This document shows, piece by piece, positions 16,490 through 27,753 of a stretch of 64,000 bases of DNA (positions are counted from its first letter, which is position 1; every line of letters begins with the position of its first letter). Origin of the DNA: a bacterium. Lineage in GTDB: Bacteria; CLD3; SB21. Under the pieces are notes generated by a model. It saw only the letters and a program-made list of their open reading frames with translations, had not been told where the DNA came from and searched no databases. A program made the translations under genes and the position numbers. The stretch is taken from positions 1 to 64,000 of the forward strand of contig JAIBAF010000008.1 in the NCBI GenBank assembly GCA_019695335.1. The letters run 5' to 3'.

Positions 16490-16509
16490 TAAAAAAGTTA
16501 AGACTAACT
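16490..16509 (-). terminator. possible terminator after pyrE
   Basis: AGTTA (16496-16500) and TAACT (16505-16509) form a short stem at the pyrE stop. On the minus strand it runs straight into TTTTTTATTTG. The U-run is good, but the stem is only 5 AT-rich pairs. Confidence 0.35.
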
Positions 16510-17090
16510 CAGGATTTGAGAGAACGACTTCCGGGCTTAATAGCAGGAACCTTGCCCTCGCGACATAATGGGCAATCAGAAGGGTCGTATTTTTTAACGT
16601 CCATGGCCAGCAATGAAAATTGAGGAACGCCAAACTCAACAGTTCCGTTGCTTCGATCAACAATGTAGCCCACGCCGATAACATTCGCGTCGCGATCGCG
16701 GCAAAGCTGGACAACTTCTTTCACCGATCCGCCCGTCGTCACAACGTCTTCGACTACGAGCACATTGTCGTCACGATGAATTTCAAATCCCCGCCGCAAT
16801 TGCATGACGCCGTTTTCCCTTTCGGCAAAAATGCACCGCGCATTCAAAGTCCTGGCCACTTCGTGGCCTACAATGATACCGCCGACGGCCGGCGCTACAA
16901 CCGCCTGAATTTTGTGCGCCGCAAAGTGCAGCCCAATCTCGCCGCATAAAATCTGAGCATAATTGGGATATTGCAGTACTTTGGCGCATTGAAAATAATT
17001 AGGACTATGCGCTCCGGACGTCAAAATAAAATGTCCTTCAAGCAGCGCGCCGGTCTTTCTGAATATGTTTAAGACTTCTTCCGAATGCAC
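16509..17090 (-). CDS. pyrE: orotate phosphoribosyltransferase
   Basis: PyrE joins orotate to PRPP, giving orotidine 5'-monophosphate in pyrimidine synthesis. The PRPP-binding loop is VLVVEDVVTTGGS (110-122), with the acidic pair Glu114-Asp115. The N-terminal part contains LTSGAHSPNYFQ, the usual substrate-binding region. The length (193 aa) is normal. It lies 8 bp downstream of the GH2-like gene on the same strand; no other pyrimidine gene is nearby. Confidence 0.95.
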   Translation of the reverse strand: MHSEEVLNIFRKTGALLEGHFILTSGAHSPNYFQCAKVLQYPNYAQILCGEIGLHFAAHKIQAVVAPAVGGIIVGHEVARTLNARCIFAERENGVMQLRRGFEIHRDDNVLVVEDVVTTGGSVKEVVQLCRDRDANVIGVGYIVDRSNGTVEFGVPQFSLLAMDVKKYDPSDCPLCREGKVPAIKPGSRSLKS

Positions 17091-17098
17091 GTCGCTCC

Positions 17099-19765
17099 TT
17101 ATTCGAATGAATAATTCCGGCTTTGGTATACTTTTTCAGTATAGTCCATAAGATTGAACATATCGTGATTGCGCGAGTATCTGATACTGATAACCATGAT
17201 GGCCGCAATCAGCAACCCGCCAAACACGATCAAAATCTTATTCCATGAAACATCGTATATGATTTTTAAAATCCGGAACATGCGCACTATGTGCCACATT
17301 ACCATGATCAAACATATAACGACGGCTGTGGTCATAAAAAAATCCAAACGCATCAATCGTTGAAATAAAATAACACACGGCATTAGAAAAAGGTAATGCG
17401 AACTGCTCCATAAGCCGGCCAAAAATGTTTGTTGAAAATAAACCTGAACACGGAATACAAATGTAAATAATTTGATCAATAAGCCAGTTACTATAAAGAA
17501 AATTAAAAACAATCCTGTGAATGACGTGATAAATATTTCAGGACTCCATGCTATACTGTCGATCCACGCTTTAAAACCGTTGTCGACCAATACGTTGGCT
17601 ACAAATTGATCGAACAATTGATTTCTTCTCAATTCAAAAAAAATCAGCGACATCATGGCCGCCATGGACAAACTGCTCAAAAAAGCTACAATCAATGCGG
17701 GCCAAATAGCAATAACCCGATTCTCGCGAACGTCTGTATAAAAAGTTAACACCTTGGTAATTGAACGAAAAACACTGTTATTGAATTTGCCGCTCTGGCG
17801 ATAAAATGTCACAAATACCAAGACTAATAATAGCCCTACTACCGGAAATGTTTTCGGAAATGGGTTTTCAAACGATCCGATCGGGATACTTTCGATCTTG
17901 TCATTGCTGTACAATGCTTTGGCAAAGTCGTAAGCGAAGCGCTCTTTACGTTGATAGGTTACCATCCCGGATGTATAAATGTCCTGATCGTATAACAGAT
18001 ATGCAAATCCGTAGGTACGATTAGTTACAAAATCATTGTAAGAGCGAATAATCCCGCCCGCCACTTTCCATTCGCTTAATTTTTTGTAAATATCAATCAG
18101 ATATTTTGCCTGAAATTTAGTCGAAGTCGGGTCGCTATAGCCGTTTTGATTGTTCGGAAAAATTTGAACGCCGTAGGTACAAATGACCGCACGATTCGGC
18201 CACCGGGAAAGGCTCTTGGTTGCAAAAATATTAGCCTCCAGGAAATTATTACTGCGCAGGCTAAGGTTGATAATATCGACCTGATCCATATAAACGTCTT
18301 GCATACCGAAAATCGACGTGCAAAATGTGGGGCGATCATCAAGGCTCTTGATGAGTTGCGACATCTGGTTCAAGTAAGCATTCATATCTTTTGAATTGTG
18401 GTCATGTGCAGAGCCCAATCCCCACGCAAGAATACATGGATTGAGTCTGTCATTTTCGATCATCGTACGATAATACGGTTTCAATTCCTCTGCATATGCA
18501 TTATCGCGCAGTACATTGGGAGTAAAACCAAACGCCGGCGCTTCATACAAAAGGAACAGTCCGTATCGATTGCATAATTCAAGAAAATACGGATGAGGAG
18601 GATGATGCTTGAAATAAACGGCATTTGCGCCCATTTTTTTGATACGCAAAACATCCGATTCCATTACGGCAAAGGATAAAGAATTACCCTCATCGGGATA
18701 ATCTTCATAATATTCGACGCCCCGTATGGTAAGCGGTTGAGAATTGATCAAAATGACATTATCCTGCACACTGACTTTACTCAATCCGACATACGTTTGA
18801 GTCTGATCGACTAATGTATCGGCCTGAATCAAAGAAAAAACTATGCGGTAACGATAGGGGCTTTCGGCATTCCAGAAAATCGGTTTTTCCAGAGTAAATT
18901 TAGCCTCCAGATTCGCAAACCGATTTAACACGATTCGACCATCGGGATTAAGCTCTTTGATTTTAGGAATTTCCCATACGTTACGATAACGTTTATATCG
19001 ATTGGTATAAACCGGTTCCGGGTCATCTTCATTAAACATTTCAATCACGTAACGTACGTCTGAAGTTTTTTCAAGAATACTGGCGCCGGCACTGGTATCT
19101 TTCTGTTGATATCCGAAGTCGTAATTACGCAAATCCAGACCGATTGTAAAATCACATTTTCGTAGATCGTTGGAAATAGCATAGCGTACGGACCATTTGT
19201 CAATGGTCAGTTTTGGCGTAGCCAATAAGAAAATTTCACGGAAAATCCCACCGTAAGTTTTTGGCTGCAAGAGAGAGGATCGTCTCGGAATAGTGTTATG
19301 TGCGTTGAGTGCGCTATTGACCGTAATTTCAATCGTATTCGTTTCGCCGACTTTAATAAGCCCGTCGCTAAGGTCAATCTCGCGGCGAAGATAGCCTCCG
19401 TTATGATTCGCCACAAATTCGCCGTTGATTCTTATTTCGGCTGCAAAATTGATCCCGAATGAAACAAGACGGAAATGCAAATTTTCAAATTCAGGACCAG
19501 GCACAAACGAACGACGGTAAACAACTTTACCCTCGTAATCATAATTGCTCGGGACAAGAATTTTAGTCTGGAAGTTTTCATAAGTAATGGCCCACTCGCC
19601 CGCAAGATCCAGCACCTGACGATTGTCTGATAGCGATAGATAATTGCGCAAAAGTTGTTCGTCATAACCACTTTTATCGCCATAAACTTTGAATTCGTCC
19701 ACAGCATGAACGGAGGTTGCCAGAATCAAAAATATCCCAACAACCGGTATCGTCAATATTCGCAT
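17099..19765 (-). CDS. GH2-fold (beta-galactosidase-like) protein fused to a six-helix membrane domain, catalytically degenerate
   Basis: The 888-aa product has a signal peptide (about 1-19), a jelly-roll sugar-binding domain, an immunoglobulin-like domain, and then a TIM barrel recognisable as glycoside hydrolase family 2. The barrel shows IRGVEYYEDYPDEGNS and MGANAVYFKHHPPHPYFLELC. Residues from about 640 to 870 form six hydrophobic helices. At the two catalytic positions the expected glutamates are missing. The acid/base motif WSLGNE reads WGLGSA (Ser452-Ala453), and the nucleophile motif SEYG reads CTYG (Thr530). It is therefore probably a non-enzymatic carbohydrate-binding membrane protein. 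The start is the ATG before the signal peptide, with GGAG upstream; the longer frame would overlap the arginase gene. Confidence 0.88.
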   Translation of the reverse strand: MRILTIPVVGIFLILATSVHAVDEFKVYGDKSGYDEQLLRNYLSLSDNRQVLDLAGEWAITYENFQTKILVPSNYDYEGKVVYRRSFVPGPEFENLHFRLVSFGINFAAEIRINGEFVANHNGGYLRREIDLSDGLIKVGETNTIEITVNSALNAHNTIPRRSSLLQPKTYGGIFREIFLLATPKLTIDKWSVRYAISNDLRKCDFTIGLDLRNYDFGYQQKDTSAGASILEKTSDVRYVIEMFNEDDPEPVYTNRYKRYRNVWEIPKIKELNPDGRIVLNRFANLEAKFTLEKPIFWNAESPYRYRIVFSLIQADTLVDQTQTYVGLSKVSVQDNVILINSQPLTIRGVEYYEDYPDEGNSLSFAVMESDVLRIKKMGANAVYFKHHPPHPYFLELCNRYGLFLLYEAPAFGFTPNVLRDNAYAEELKPYYRTMIENDRLNPCILAWGLGSAHDHNSKDMNAYLNQMSQLIKSLDDRPTFCTSIFGMQDVYMDQVDIINLSLRSNNFLEANIFATKSLSRWPNRAVICTYGVQIFPNNQNGYSDPTSTKFQAKYLIDIYKKLSEWKVAGGIIRSYNDFVTNRTYGFAYLLYDQDIYTSGMVTYQRKERFAYDFAKALYSNDKIESIPIGSFENPFPKTFPVVGLLLVLVFVTFYRQSGKFNNSVFRSITKVLTFYTDVRENRVIAIWPALIVAFLSSLSMAAMMSLIFFELRRNQLFDQFVANVLVDNGFKAWIDSIAWSPEIFITSFTGLFLIFFIVTGLLIKLFTFVFRVQVYFQQTFLAGLWSSSHYLFLMPCVILFQRLMRLDFFMTTAVVICLIMVMWHIVRMFRILKIIYDVSWNKILIVFGGLLIAAIMVISIRYSRNHDMFNLMDYTEKVYQSRNYSFE

Positions 19766-19781: not shown

Positions 19782-20690
19782 CTAAATGATACTTTTGCCG
19801 AAAAATGAAGCAATGAGTTCGACGCCGACTTTGGCGGTTGCGTTACGAACATCGAGAATCGGATTGGTTTCAACGTATTCCAGTGAAAGCGCTTTTTTAG
19901 ATTCACATAAAGTTTCCATGACATAATGCGCTTCGCGGTAGGTCAGTCCGCCGTTGACGGGAGTACCCACGCCCGGTGCGAGCGAAGGATCAAGACTGTC
20001 GGCATCGAAACTGACATGTACGCCTTCGGTATGGCGTGATGCAATGTCGATAGCTTTTTCCATAATCCTGTGGATTCCCTGTTGGTCAATATCCCGCATG
20101 GTAAAAATCGTGACTCCCATTTTCCGGATATTTTCGATTTCGCCTTTATCCAACGTTCTGATCCCGACAAGAACCGTATTGGCCGGATCAACTTTGGCAA
20201 AATCGCCCCCGACAGCGGTTAATTTCGAATGCCCCACGCCGAGCGAAACGGCCAGAGGCATCCCGTGAATATTTCCGGAGGGAGACGTTTCAGGCGTATT
20301 CATATCCCCGTGGGCGTCTACCCAGATAATTCCGATTTTCTTGTGGCGTTTACGGAAATGAGAAGACACGCCTGCCACCGTACCGATAGCGATTGAATGA
20401 TCTCCGCCGAGTACCAGTGGAACCTCATGATCATCGAGGGTCTTTTCAACGATTTCAGAAAGTGCAGTTACGCCTTTGACAATTTCATTCAAGTATTTAA
20501 GTTTCTCATCACCAACTTTAAGAATCTCAGGCGCTTTAGTAACAATGTCGCCTTTATCTTTGATGGTATAACCCAATTCATTTAGACGCTCCGCCAGACC
20601 AGCTATACGAAGCGCCGATGGTCCCATATCCGTACCACGGCGGCCCGCGCCCAAATCAAGCGGAACACCAATAATTCTGATAACCGACAT
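19782..20690 (-). CDS. rocF: arginase
   Basis: Arginase hydrolyses arginine to ornithine and urea using a binuclear manganese centre. The ligand motifs are all present in the 302-aa chain: GGDHS with His98, WVDAHGDMN with Asp125, His127 and Asp129, and SFDADSLDP near residue 230. The early GVPLDLGAGRRGTDMGPSALR is typical of true arginases rather than agmatinases, as is the length. Agmatinase or formiminoglutamase remain less likely alternatives. It sits between the polysaccharide locus and the GH2-fold gene, both on the same strand. Confidence 0.92.
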   Translation of the reverse strand: MSVIRIIGVPLDLGAGRRGTDMGPSALRIAGLAERLNELGYTIKDKGDIVTKAPEILKVGDEKLKYLNEIVKGVTALSEIVEKTLDDHEVPLVLGGDHSIAIGTVAGVSSHFRKRHKKIGIIWVDAHGDMNTPETSPSGNIHGMPLAVSLGVGHSKLTAVGGDFAKVDPANTVLVGIRTLDKGEIENIRKMGVTIFTMRDIDQQGIHRIMEKAIDIASRHTEGVHVSFDADSLDPSLAPGVGTPVNGGLTYREAHYVMETLCESKKALSLEYVETNPILDVRNATAKVGVELIASFFGKSII

Positions 20691-24801: not shown

Positions 24802-27534
24802 TTATTTTAAGAAAGTTATTTTCTTTGCCAAAGATGTTTTCATTTTACTTGATAAACTTTTTGCACGCAACAAAACAACGTAGACGCCGCTTGCTAAATT
24901 CTGTTCTGGTCGCCATTGTATTTCATACTGATCCGCCTCAAATTCGCCTTTGGACAATACGACTATGCGTTGCCCTAATACATTATAAATTTCCAATTCA
25001 ACGAAACTTTTCTCGGGCAAATCGAAACGAATTGTCGTTGCCGGATTAAATGGATTAGGATAACTACTTTCCAATGCATAATTTTTTGGAACAAGTTCTG
25101 GATTGAGTACACGTTTCAAAGTATAAAATTCATTGGTATCTATTTCTGAACTGAAGTGTACGCCATCAAACGCAGCTACATACCATTTGTATTTAGCATT
25201 TTCCTTGAAAACACTTCCATCGATTATTACAGAAGTATCAGTGATACCCGTAATCATTGAATCCAAACCATCGCCAAAAATTCTAAATGCATAGTCTAGT
25301 GCGCCTGATAAATCTGGATCAGACGATTTCGTCCATATAAATGTCCGAGGAATCGGAAACTTATATAACGTTAGTGCATCCTCTTGTAAAGGATACAAAA
25401 GCTGGACGGATAGCGGTTCTTCGTTTTTCGAGACGCGCAGATTATAGCTTTGAATTCCTATTCCTTGATGATTATCCCGAACAAGTATCGTTACTAAAGT
25501 ATCACCCACAGCTTCACGTATCGGTTTTCCCATAACTACACCTGAAATACTGTCAATAGTAAGCCAAGTTGGCGCAGTTAATAGATCATATCGTAGGGTG
25601 TCATGGAATAGGAGGCTATCCTGATCTTGTGCATGCGACTGATAGCTGTATAAAATACCTTCTTTGGCTGATGTTTCAGGAATTGACACAAAAACCGGTA
25701 TTATATTTTTTCTGGTAGCGAAAGTAAACACGTCACTCCAGGCAGCATCAGTTCCCACATCCAGAACTCTGACGCGCCAAAACAATGTGTCGATGTTTGA
25801 GAATTGTGTACGGTAAATCGTGTCGGTCAAATTCGATATTTGGATCAGCGGATTTCTGAAATCAGAGTTTCGATTGATTTCAAGCTCATACGTATGCGCG
25901 CCGCTGTTATATAGCTCCCACGCAAGGGATAGTGAATCTTCCGCCAGAACGATACCGTTGTTTGCAACGCTGGAAAGTGAAGGTATAAAATAGTTGATAG
26001 GCAGGTGTATCGAATTATTCATCAGAACTCTGCCGTCACGCCGAATTTCGATCGTGCGGTTTAGTGCCCCGCTCCCCAGTGAAGACGGATTAACCGATCC
26101 TAGTACGGGATTCGTTGCTTTAGAAAGGCGTACTACGTAAGGCAGCACGGACGGAAATGTCACCTCAATATTATAATTACCGGTTTCCGGTATTCCAAAA
26201 TGGGTCGCATATTGGTTTTGTGATAAGTACTCTTGCCCGAGTCCGACAACTTTTGTATACATCATTGTATCCGTTCCGGCATCGTAAATTCGTATTGTTG
26301 CTCCAAATTGATTCTCATTCCCGTTTTGATCGGTAACTTTTACAAAAATATAGTTATCGTTATTCAAGTGATTTTCGAATAAGATCGGCGCATTCGTGAC
26401 GAATGCCAATTGCCCGATAGCAACATCCATATCGCCGTCATTATCATAATCTGCCCAGGCCGGAGTTGTATAATTTGTTTGGTTTGGCAATCCAAGTGAC
26501 GATGTCGAATCGGCAAAGTTTTGGCCGTTGTGATTTTTGAACAGTGTGAAAGGGTCAGTGCCGTTATACATTGAACCGTACCAGATATCGAGCCACCCGT
26601 CATTATCATAGTCAATAAAGCCTGCACCCCAGTTGACAGTATGCGGTAATCCATATAGATCCGTGACATCCTGAAATGTCCCGTTCCCAAGATTCTTATA
26701 CAATTTTGTATATCTATCTGGATGTTCGCAAATAAGCAGGTCGATGAATCCGTCATTGTTGAAATCACCTGCCGATCCGCCTTCGTCAAATGAATGAGGC
26801 AGCCCGGCAGTAGCTGTGACATCTGTAAACGTTCCATCCGAGTTATTGCTATACAACGTCGCACTTAAATATAAGTCCAGATCGGAGTCGTTGTCGTAGT
26901 CAAAAATCATTGTAGCTTCAGCATTTACAAAAGTGGAGATACCGGATGCTGCCGTGACATCTGTGAAACCGTTCTTGCCATCGTTACGAAAAAGATGATT
27001 ACCCGTAGGCGGGTTAGATGTTCTATAAAAAGGCATGATCACATCAAGATCGCCGTCGCCATCGTAGTCAAAGAAACGGGGCGTTTCTCCGTCGCCTGGC
27101 AAATTTAATCCGGATTGCGGAGCCACATCCAAGAACTTACCGTCACCGAGGTTTTTAAATAGTTGCGATCGTGCAGACGCAAAAGCTTCTGTCCGGCTCA
27201 GCAGGATAAGATCGGGCCATGAATCGTTGTTATAATCTCCCCATGAACCACTGACGATGGAAATGCCAGAATTCAGACCGGCCTCCAAAACCATATCACT
27301 AAAGGATCTGTTCTTATTATTCAACATGAGATGATATTGTCCGAGATTACCATCCCTGATAAAAATATCCTGGAACCCATCTTTGTTATAATCGCACCAT
27401 GCTCCATTCAGCATTCGATTAATGCCAATATTAAATCCCGAGGATACGGACTCATCGGAGAACGTCTGCGATATAGCGTTCTCAGTTATTAGTATGGACA
27501 GGATGAGTAGCAGGAGATTGCGGTTTCGGGCCAT
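24802..27534 (-). CDS. secreted FG-GAP/VCBS repeat protein with T9SS C-terminal sorting domain
   Basis: The product of about 910 aa has a signal peptide (MARNRN followed by a hydrophobic core). Seven or so FG-GAP/VCBS blades follow, each with a calcium-type D-x-D-x-D loop (DYNKDGFQD, DYNNDSWPD, DYDGDGDLD, DYDNDSDLD, DFNNDGFID, DYDNDGWLD, DYDNDGDMD). After them comes an ASPIC/UnbV-like segment (NQFGATIRIYDAG, IEIRRDGRV), then immunoglobulin or cadherin-like domains. The last 85 residues are a type A T9SS sorting domain (SYPNPFNPATTIRFDLP and LEIYNVLGQ). It should be exported across the outer membrane and anchored at the surface. An earlier ATG at 27567 has a weak Shine-Dalgarno and is an alternative start. 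It lies within the polysaccharide locus. Confidence 0.9.
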   Translation of the reverse strand: MARNRNLLLLILSILITENAISQTFSDESVSSGFNIGINRMLNGAWCDYNKDGFQDIFIRDGNLGQYHLMLNNKNRSFSDMVLEAGLNSGISIVSGSWGDYNNDSWPDLILLSRTEAFASARSQLFKNLGDGKFLDVAPQSGLNLPGDGETPRFFDYDGDGDLDVIMPFYRTSNPPTGNHLFRNDGKNGFTDVTAASGISTFVNAEATMIFDYDNDSDLDLYLSATLYSNNSDGTFTDVTATAGLPHSFDEGGSAGDFNNDGFIDLLICEHPDRYTKLYKNLGNGTFQDVTDLYGLPHTVNWGAGFIDYDNDGWLDIWYGSMYNGTDPFTLFKNHNGQNFADSTSSLGLPNQTNYTTPAWADYDNDGDMDVAIGQLAFVTNAPILFENHLNNDNYIFVKVTDQNGNENQFGATIRIYDAGTDTMMYTKVVGLGQEYLSQNQYATHFGIPETGNYNIEVTFPSVLPYVVRLSKATNPVLGSVNPSSLGSGALNRTIEIRRDGRVLMNNSIHLPINYFIPSLSSVANNGIVLAEDSLSLAWELYNSGAHTYELEINRNSDFRNPLIQISNLTDTIYRTQFSNIDTLFWRVRVLDVGTDAAWSDVFTFATRKNIIPVFVSIPETSAKEGILYSYQSHAQDQDSLLFHDTLRYDLLTAPTWLTIDSISGVVMGKPIREAVGDTLVTILVRDNHQGIGIQSYNLRVSKNEEPLSVQLLYPLQEDALTLYKFPIPRTFIWTKSSDPDLSGALDYAFRIFGDGLDSMITGITDTSVIIDGSVFKENAKYKWYVAAFDGVHFSSEIDTNEFYTLKRVLNPELVPKNYALESSYPNPFNPATTIRFDLPEKSFVELEIYNVLGQRIVVLSKGEFEADQYEIQWRPEQNLASGVYVVLLRAKSLSSKMKTSLAKKITFLK

Positions 27535-27753
27535 GACGATGTATAAAAAAATTATCAAATTGTCCATGTTGCCTCTGAAAATGTAGTTGATATTCAGGCT
27601 CCAAATATTCAATTTCTATGCCAAAAATAAACTTGTAGTCAATCATATCAATGTTGATTTTATTCGTTTAAGTGTATCCTTGATTTGACAAATTTTCCCC
27701 AATGACGGAAAGGCCGTCACAAGATACACTCTTTTGTATTTACTGAAAAAGAT

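Follow-up and report, generated by a model that had tools for sequence, protein, structure and literature searches.

The window, the whole 64,000-nucleotide stretch of DNA analyzed here, carries on its minus strand a gene for an 888-residue protein in which a glycoside hydrolase family 2 (GH2) fold lacking both catalytic glutamates is joined to a Yip1-like membrane domain. The gene begins with the ATG at 19765, and 17099 is the last base of its stop codon. The features discussed below are as follows.

17099..19765, minus strand: coding sequence of the pseudo-GH2/Yip1-like fusion protein, 888 residues (open reading frame, translation, GGAG before the ATG, homologues in the same family)
19697..19765, minus strand: predicted signal peptide, approximately residues 1–23 (MRILTIPVVGIFLILATSVHAVD; hydrophobic N-terminus)
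18782..19636, minus strand: jelly-roll and Ig-like domains of the GH2 fold, approximately residues 44–328 (matches to PF02837, PF22666, and PF00703; beta strands of the model)
17891..18781, minus strand: GH2 TIM barrel without catalytic glutamates, approximately residues 329–625 (PF02836, 1.1e-20; Foldseek)
18407..18412, minus strand: codons of S452-A453, at the place of the GH2 acid/base Asn-Glu (family alignment; end of model strand 445–453)
18176..18178, minus strand: codon of T530, at the place of the GH2 nucleophile glutamate (family alignment; end of model strand 526–531)
17102..17890, minus strand: six-helix Yip1-like membrane domain, residues 626–888 (PF04893, 1.4e-5; relatives above the gathering score; AlphaFold)
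19782..20690, minus strand: agmatinase/arginase-family gene, the upstream neighbor, kept within the window's own family (cluster c22; named from sequence)
16509..17090, minus strand: pyrE-like phosphoribosyltransferase gene, the downstream neighbor, kept within the same family (cluster c27; named from sequence)

A longer mechanical open reading frame reaches 19924 and overlaps the neighboring gene. The start at 19765 is preferred because GGAG lies immediately 5' of this ATG (CCGGAGCACCCCATG), because the predicted signal peptide begins there, and because the overlap with the neighbor is avoided. Homologues with 50–96% identity to the fusion protein exist within the same family, and at the signal-peptide position homologues are hydrophobic too.

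Family models for the jelly-roll, Ig, and TIM-barrel domains all exceed their gathering scores: Pfam Glyco_hydro_2_N matches residues 49–184 (E 4.7e-9), Glyco_hydro_2 residues 285–328 (E 3.7e-6), and Glyco_hydro_2_C residues 331–616 (E 1.1e-20). A phmmer search of the PDB picks out LacZ-type enzymes and beta-glucuronidases, and Foldseek with the AlphaFold model of the fusion protein (pLDDT 78, 10 sequences in the alignment) returns GH2 beta-glucuronidases and beta-galactosidases at E ∼1e-39, the top matches of the ectodomain being 8dhe, 3fn9, and 6xxw. The assignment of the barrel to GH2 in an earlier note, made from the letters of the window, is thus borne out by all three approaches, and the full jelly-roll, Ig, and TIM arrangement is the same as in GH2 enzymes of the GusA/LacZ type (PF02836, PF02837, PF00703). 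The fusion family differs from these enzymes in its lack of the catalytic pair, in a fixed C-terminal six-helix domain, and in its occurrence as a single copy.

In GH2 enzymes the acid/base Asn-Glu pair ends strand 4 of the barrel and the nucleophile glutamate ends strand 7. The barrel strands of the model comprise residues 347–352, 382–385, 404–408, 445–453, 480–484, 498–502, 526–531, and 570–573, so numbered that S452 and A453, within the motif WGLGSA (residues 448–453), end strand 4, and T530, within CTYG (residues 529–532), ends strand 7. That both catalytic glutamates are replaced, at exactly these residues, had been claimed in the earlier note, and the strand ends of the model and the family alignment agree with it. 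The barrel alignment comprises 72 family members and, as controls, 15 ordinary GH2 proteins that the same searches returned. Both catalytic glutamates are found in 0 of the 72 members versus 15 of 15 controls, and the N-E acid/base dyad in 0 of 72 versus 14 of 15. Taken singly, glutamate occupies the acid/base column in five of the 72 members and the nucleophile column in one, versus all 15 controls at either position. Otherwise the family has G, D, Q, N, A, W, and others at the acid/base column and G, S, R, I, N, L, D, Q, and others at the nucleophile column. A recently decayed enzyme or a sequencing error is ruled out, since the catalytic pair is absent from all homologues and the frame is intact in the relatives of 50–96% identity; on the evidence of the sequences this is a conserved family and not one decayed enzyme. 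That the fold is retained although no member has the catalytic pair speaks for selection on a role other than catalysis and, because both glutamates are gone, hydrolysis of glycosides by the GH2 mechanism would not be expected of the ectodomain.

It is very unlikely that the protein is still an enzyme that relies on E408, D497, or D578, or on an exogenous nucleophile, for catalysis. E408, which ends strand 3, is retained in 51 of 72 members, D497 in 58, and D578 in 69, but the controls keep these positions as well (E or D at the first in 15 of 15, and D497 and D578 each in 14 of 15), so that retention follows from the fold. The three residues are accordingly regarded as framework and do not point to an active site that has moved, although they are no proof against one. 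No substitute glutamate for the lost catalysts was found in the barrel, either in the model or in the 72-member alignment, and an intact glutamate elsewhere at the catalytic strands, which the earlier note had held would count against it, is likewise lacking, E408 being common to the controls. Moreover, every member has lost at least one true catalyst, and nearly all have lost the two.

Genome counts were obtained using a profile, A1, built from the membrane domain alone. A single copy is found in 8 of 9 genomes of the window's own phylum, and in four further phyla, named here after one genome each, in 28 of 39 (G015), 51 of 82 (G053), 5 of 5 (G059), and the sole genome available (G009). In a broad sample 23 of 386 genomes are positive, including families (f63, f82, f89, f245, and f252) outside the five phyla counted separately. 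The total spread is ∼100 genomes in at least six phyla. Two genomes, G493 and G473, have two A1 matches each, which are neighboring pieces of one gene. Nearly all A1 matches sit in frames of 810–980 residues carrying the GH2 part, and shorter frames occur, several of them at contig ends; both domains in one chain and one copy per genome characterize the family, apart perhaps from some of these shorter frames. Substitution and membrane fusion are therefore conserved together, a point on which the earlier note had called for a homologue search.

In a tree of the barrel, which is unrooted and has some long branches, one branch parts the 72 members from the 15 ordinary GH2 proteins (support 95/90; 94% of bootstrap trees), so that loss of the catalysts and fusion need at most one event. 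Barrel and membrane-domain identities over all pairs are correlated (Spearman 0.46), as expected if the fusion is inherited as a unit. A separate GH2 protein with C-terminal membrane helices (L018:658-3207, in G048:C52) has both catalytic glutamates intact and no match to the family membrane profile, and is an independent GH2-membrane fusion. No paper on a GH2-Yip1 fusion was found in the partial library searched, and the family looks to be so far undescribed.

The six membrane helices that had been noticed after the barrel, in a stretch put at about 230 residues, are present in the models at approximately residues 639–657, 687–712, 742–771, 789–806, 808–837, and 841–867, the membrane part being ∼250 residues. 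The AlphaFold model of this domain, from a 60-sequence alignment, has pLDDT 91 and pTM 0.87. PF04893 (Yip1) matches the window copy at 1.4e-5 with 25.5 bits, where the cut-off is 28.6 bits, a score that two relatives exceed (L104, 34.3 bits; L105, 33.9 bits); with the window copy just under the cut-off and these two above it, the domain is named Yip1-like. At E up to 1, PF04893 is matched by 29 of 60 members. Searches of the PDB with the membrane domain gave no match by fold (best E 0.84) and none by sequence profile, and the family profile gave no signal against one ordinary Yip1 protein of the window's own genome. That ordinary protein (67 bits; L153:1474-2205, G000:C26) is encoded beside a gene for a TolC-like outer-membrane protein. 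A second weak Yip1 match in the same genome (G000:C18) is false, being a KdpA-like potassium-transporter subunit. The fusion family shares with prokaryotic Yip1 proteins (PF04893) a membrane domain of six or five helices, the profile match ranging from weak to significant, and differs from them in that the domain follows a GH2-fold ectodomain predicted to be exported, is very divergent, and resembles no solved structure.

DUF4271 (PF14093), found in a Bacteroides control genome, is weakly matched by three fusion-family members (best 1.4e-7). DUF4271 proteins likewise have membrane helices behind an N-terminal part, but lack the GH2 part and have no match in the window's own genome; the profile matches suggest a possible remote relationship between the two membrane domains. 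DUF4271 genes (L156, L157, L158) adjoin a hemD-like gene, some encoding a long N-terminal part before the helices.

Average conservation within the protein is highest in the membrane domain (mean JS conservation 0.38, versus 0.375 for the jelly-roll, 0.34 for the barrel, and 0.23 for the Ig domain), where R667, R683, W740, P742, W786, P796, W824, and R828 are nearly invariant. The earlier note had suggested a membrane-anchored glycan sensor or a glycan-assembly scaffold, which is a possible reading, but the membrane part is more than a plain anchor: it is Yip1-like, and its conservation is no lower than that of the barrel. Positive charge exceeds negative in the loops at 658–686 (K+R 5.8 versus D+E 2.1) and 772–786 (1.9 versus 0.2), and the two are about equal at 713–741. 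Together with the signal peptide, these charges fit a topology in which the GH2 part would be periplasmic and the loop after the first helix cytoplasmic, according to the positive-inside rule. Permeation through the Yip1-like domain, which would act as a transporter or flippase with the pseudo-GH2 part as a fused ancillary subunit in the manner of rBAT/4F2hc for amino-acid transporters, is consistent with the conserved charged and aromatic residues in this most conserved part of the protein. The rBAT ectodomain is glucosidase-like with no evidence of activity (PMC9110406), and YIPF proteins have been suggested to be channels, transporters, or receptors (PMC6682643). However, no solved structure resembles the membrane domain, a review reports no function for prokaryotic members of the Yip1 family (PMC6682643), and no substrate gene is linked throughout the fusion family, so that we consider transport an improbable function.

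The surroundings of the gene differ among lineages. Up to five loci of the window's own family share one gene order: outer-membrane barrel, agmatinase-like, fusion gene, pyrE-like, and MBL-fold. A link to a polysaccharide locus had been proposed for the window; it stands for the window's own family, to which sugar-transferase and outer-membrane-barrel neighbors are confined (five loci), but not elsewhere, where the gene lies beside guaB, smc-GWxTD, or GWxTD and an ABC-transporter ATPase gene. Membership in a polysaccharide locus is thus ruled out as a general rule. Also in the window, on the minus strand at 24802–27612, a gene for a large secreted FG-GAP/VCBS-like repeat protein with a C-terminal sorting-like tail is flanked on both sides by polysaccharide genes. 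In the phylum of G015 most loci have guaB directly after the fusion gene, in many cases with an overlap or within 30 bases. In 13 of 59 loci (L078, L080, L082, L083, L120–L122, L128, L145, and others) the fusion gene has a divergent Na+/H+ antiporter-like gene (NhaC type, named from sequence) upstream of it.

A glycan sensor or receptor, in which the dead GH2 pocket would bind sugar and signal to the Yip1-like domain, is also unlikely in our estimation. The fold and part of the pocket frame do persist (W448 in 46 of 61 members, along with E408 and D497 at the frequencies given above), and Klotho, a GH1-like membrane-bound pseudoglycosidase without catalytic glutamates that acts as a receptor or lectin, is a precedent (PMC10628560). 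Nevertheless, residues vary freely at both catalytic positions, unlike a conserved sugar site, and neither a signaling gene nor a polysaccharide locus recurs in linkage across the family.

A neighbor that recurs in several phyla is a GWxTD gene, its identity confirmed by TIGR04514 and PF20094. The trio of fusion gene, smc, and GWxTD is found in 14 of 59 loci of several families (L126, L127, L136, L137, L140, and others), and in two further loci GWxTD follows the fusion gene directly. The trio is unusual in placing a chromosome-condensation gene together with two genes of the envelope. In the broad sample, GWxTD genes are present in 23 of 23 fusion-positive genomes versus 95 of 386 overall (hypergeometric 1e-15, uncorrected for shared descent). 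Because this value ignores shared descent, which confounds the gene-order and the presence-absence links alike, the association of the fusion protein with GWxTD is only suggestive. No paper on GWxTD was found, the library searched being partial.

Of the roles considered, we favor as reasonably probable a non-hydrolytic scaffold or binding protein of the cell envelope, seated in the inner membrane, in which a dead GH2 docking module is mounted on the Yip1-like domain. The protein would be exported via its signal peptide, with the GH2-fold ectodomain standing in the periplasm, where it most likely binds or docks a glycan or a partner protein. The six-helix domain would carry the ectodomain and is probably the functional membrane part. 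A possible partner is the exported GWxTD protein, whose gene lies close by in several phyla. A more ambitious version of this scaffold role, which we regard as speculative and rather doubtful, would make the protein a single-copy core machine of the envelope in several phyla that have been little studied; in it, the Yip1-like domain would move or organize lipid or glycan and the dead GH2 module, recruited once, would dock cargo or the GWxTD partner.

Klotho, with its single transmembrane helix, GH1 fold, and animal origin, offers an analogy only. The same applies to rBAT/4F2hc (SLC3), whose ectodomain resembles a glucosidase, has no known activity, and assists a multi-pass membrane partner (PMC9110406), but which are GH13-like, eukaryotic, and built with a single helix and a partner on a separate chain. 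What is new here is that the membrane part is Yip1-like and that the pseudo-GH2 fusion is conserved across phyla. Databases likely label such proteins as beta-galactosidase or GH2, which would be functionally wrong. By analogy, the family may be regarded as a bacterial counterpart of rBAT/4F2hc and Klotho, a pseudoglycosidase of the envelope that is conserved and present in single copy. It offers a route to understanding what prokaryotic Yip1 proteins and GWxTD proteins do, for neither of which we found a reported function.
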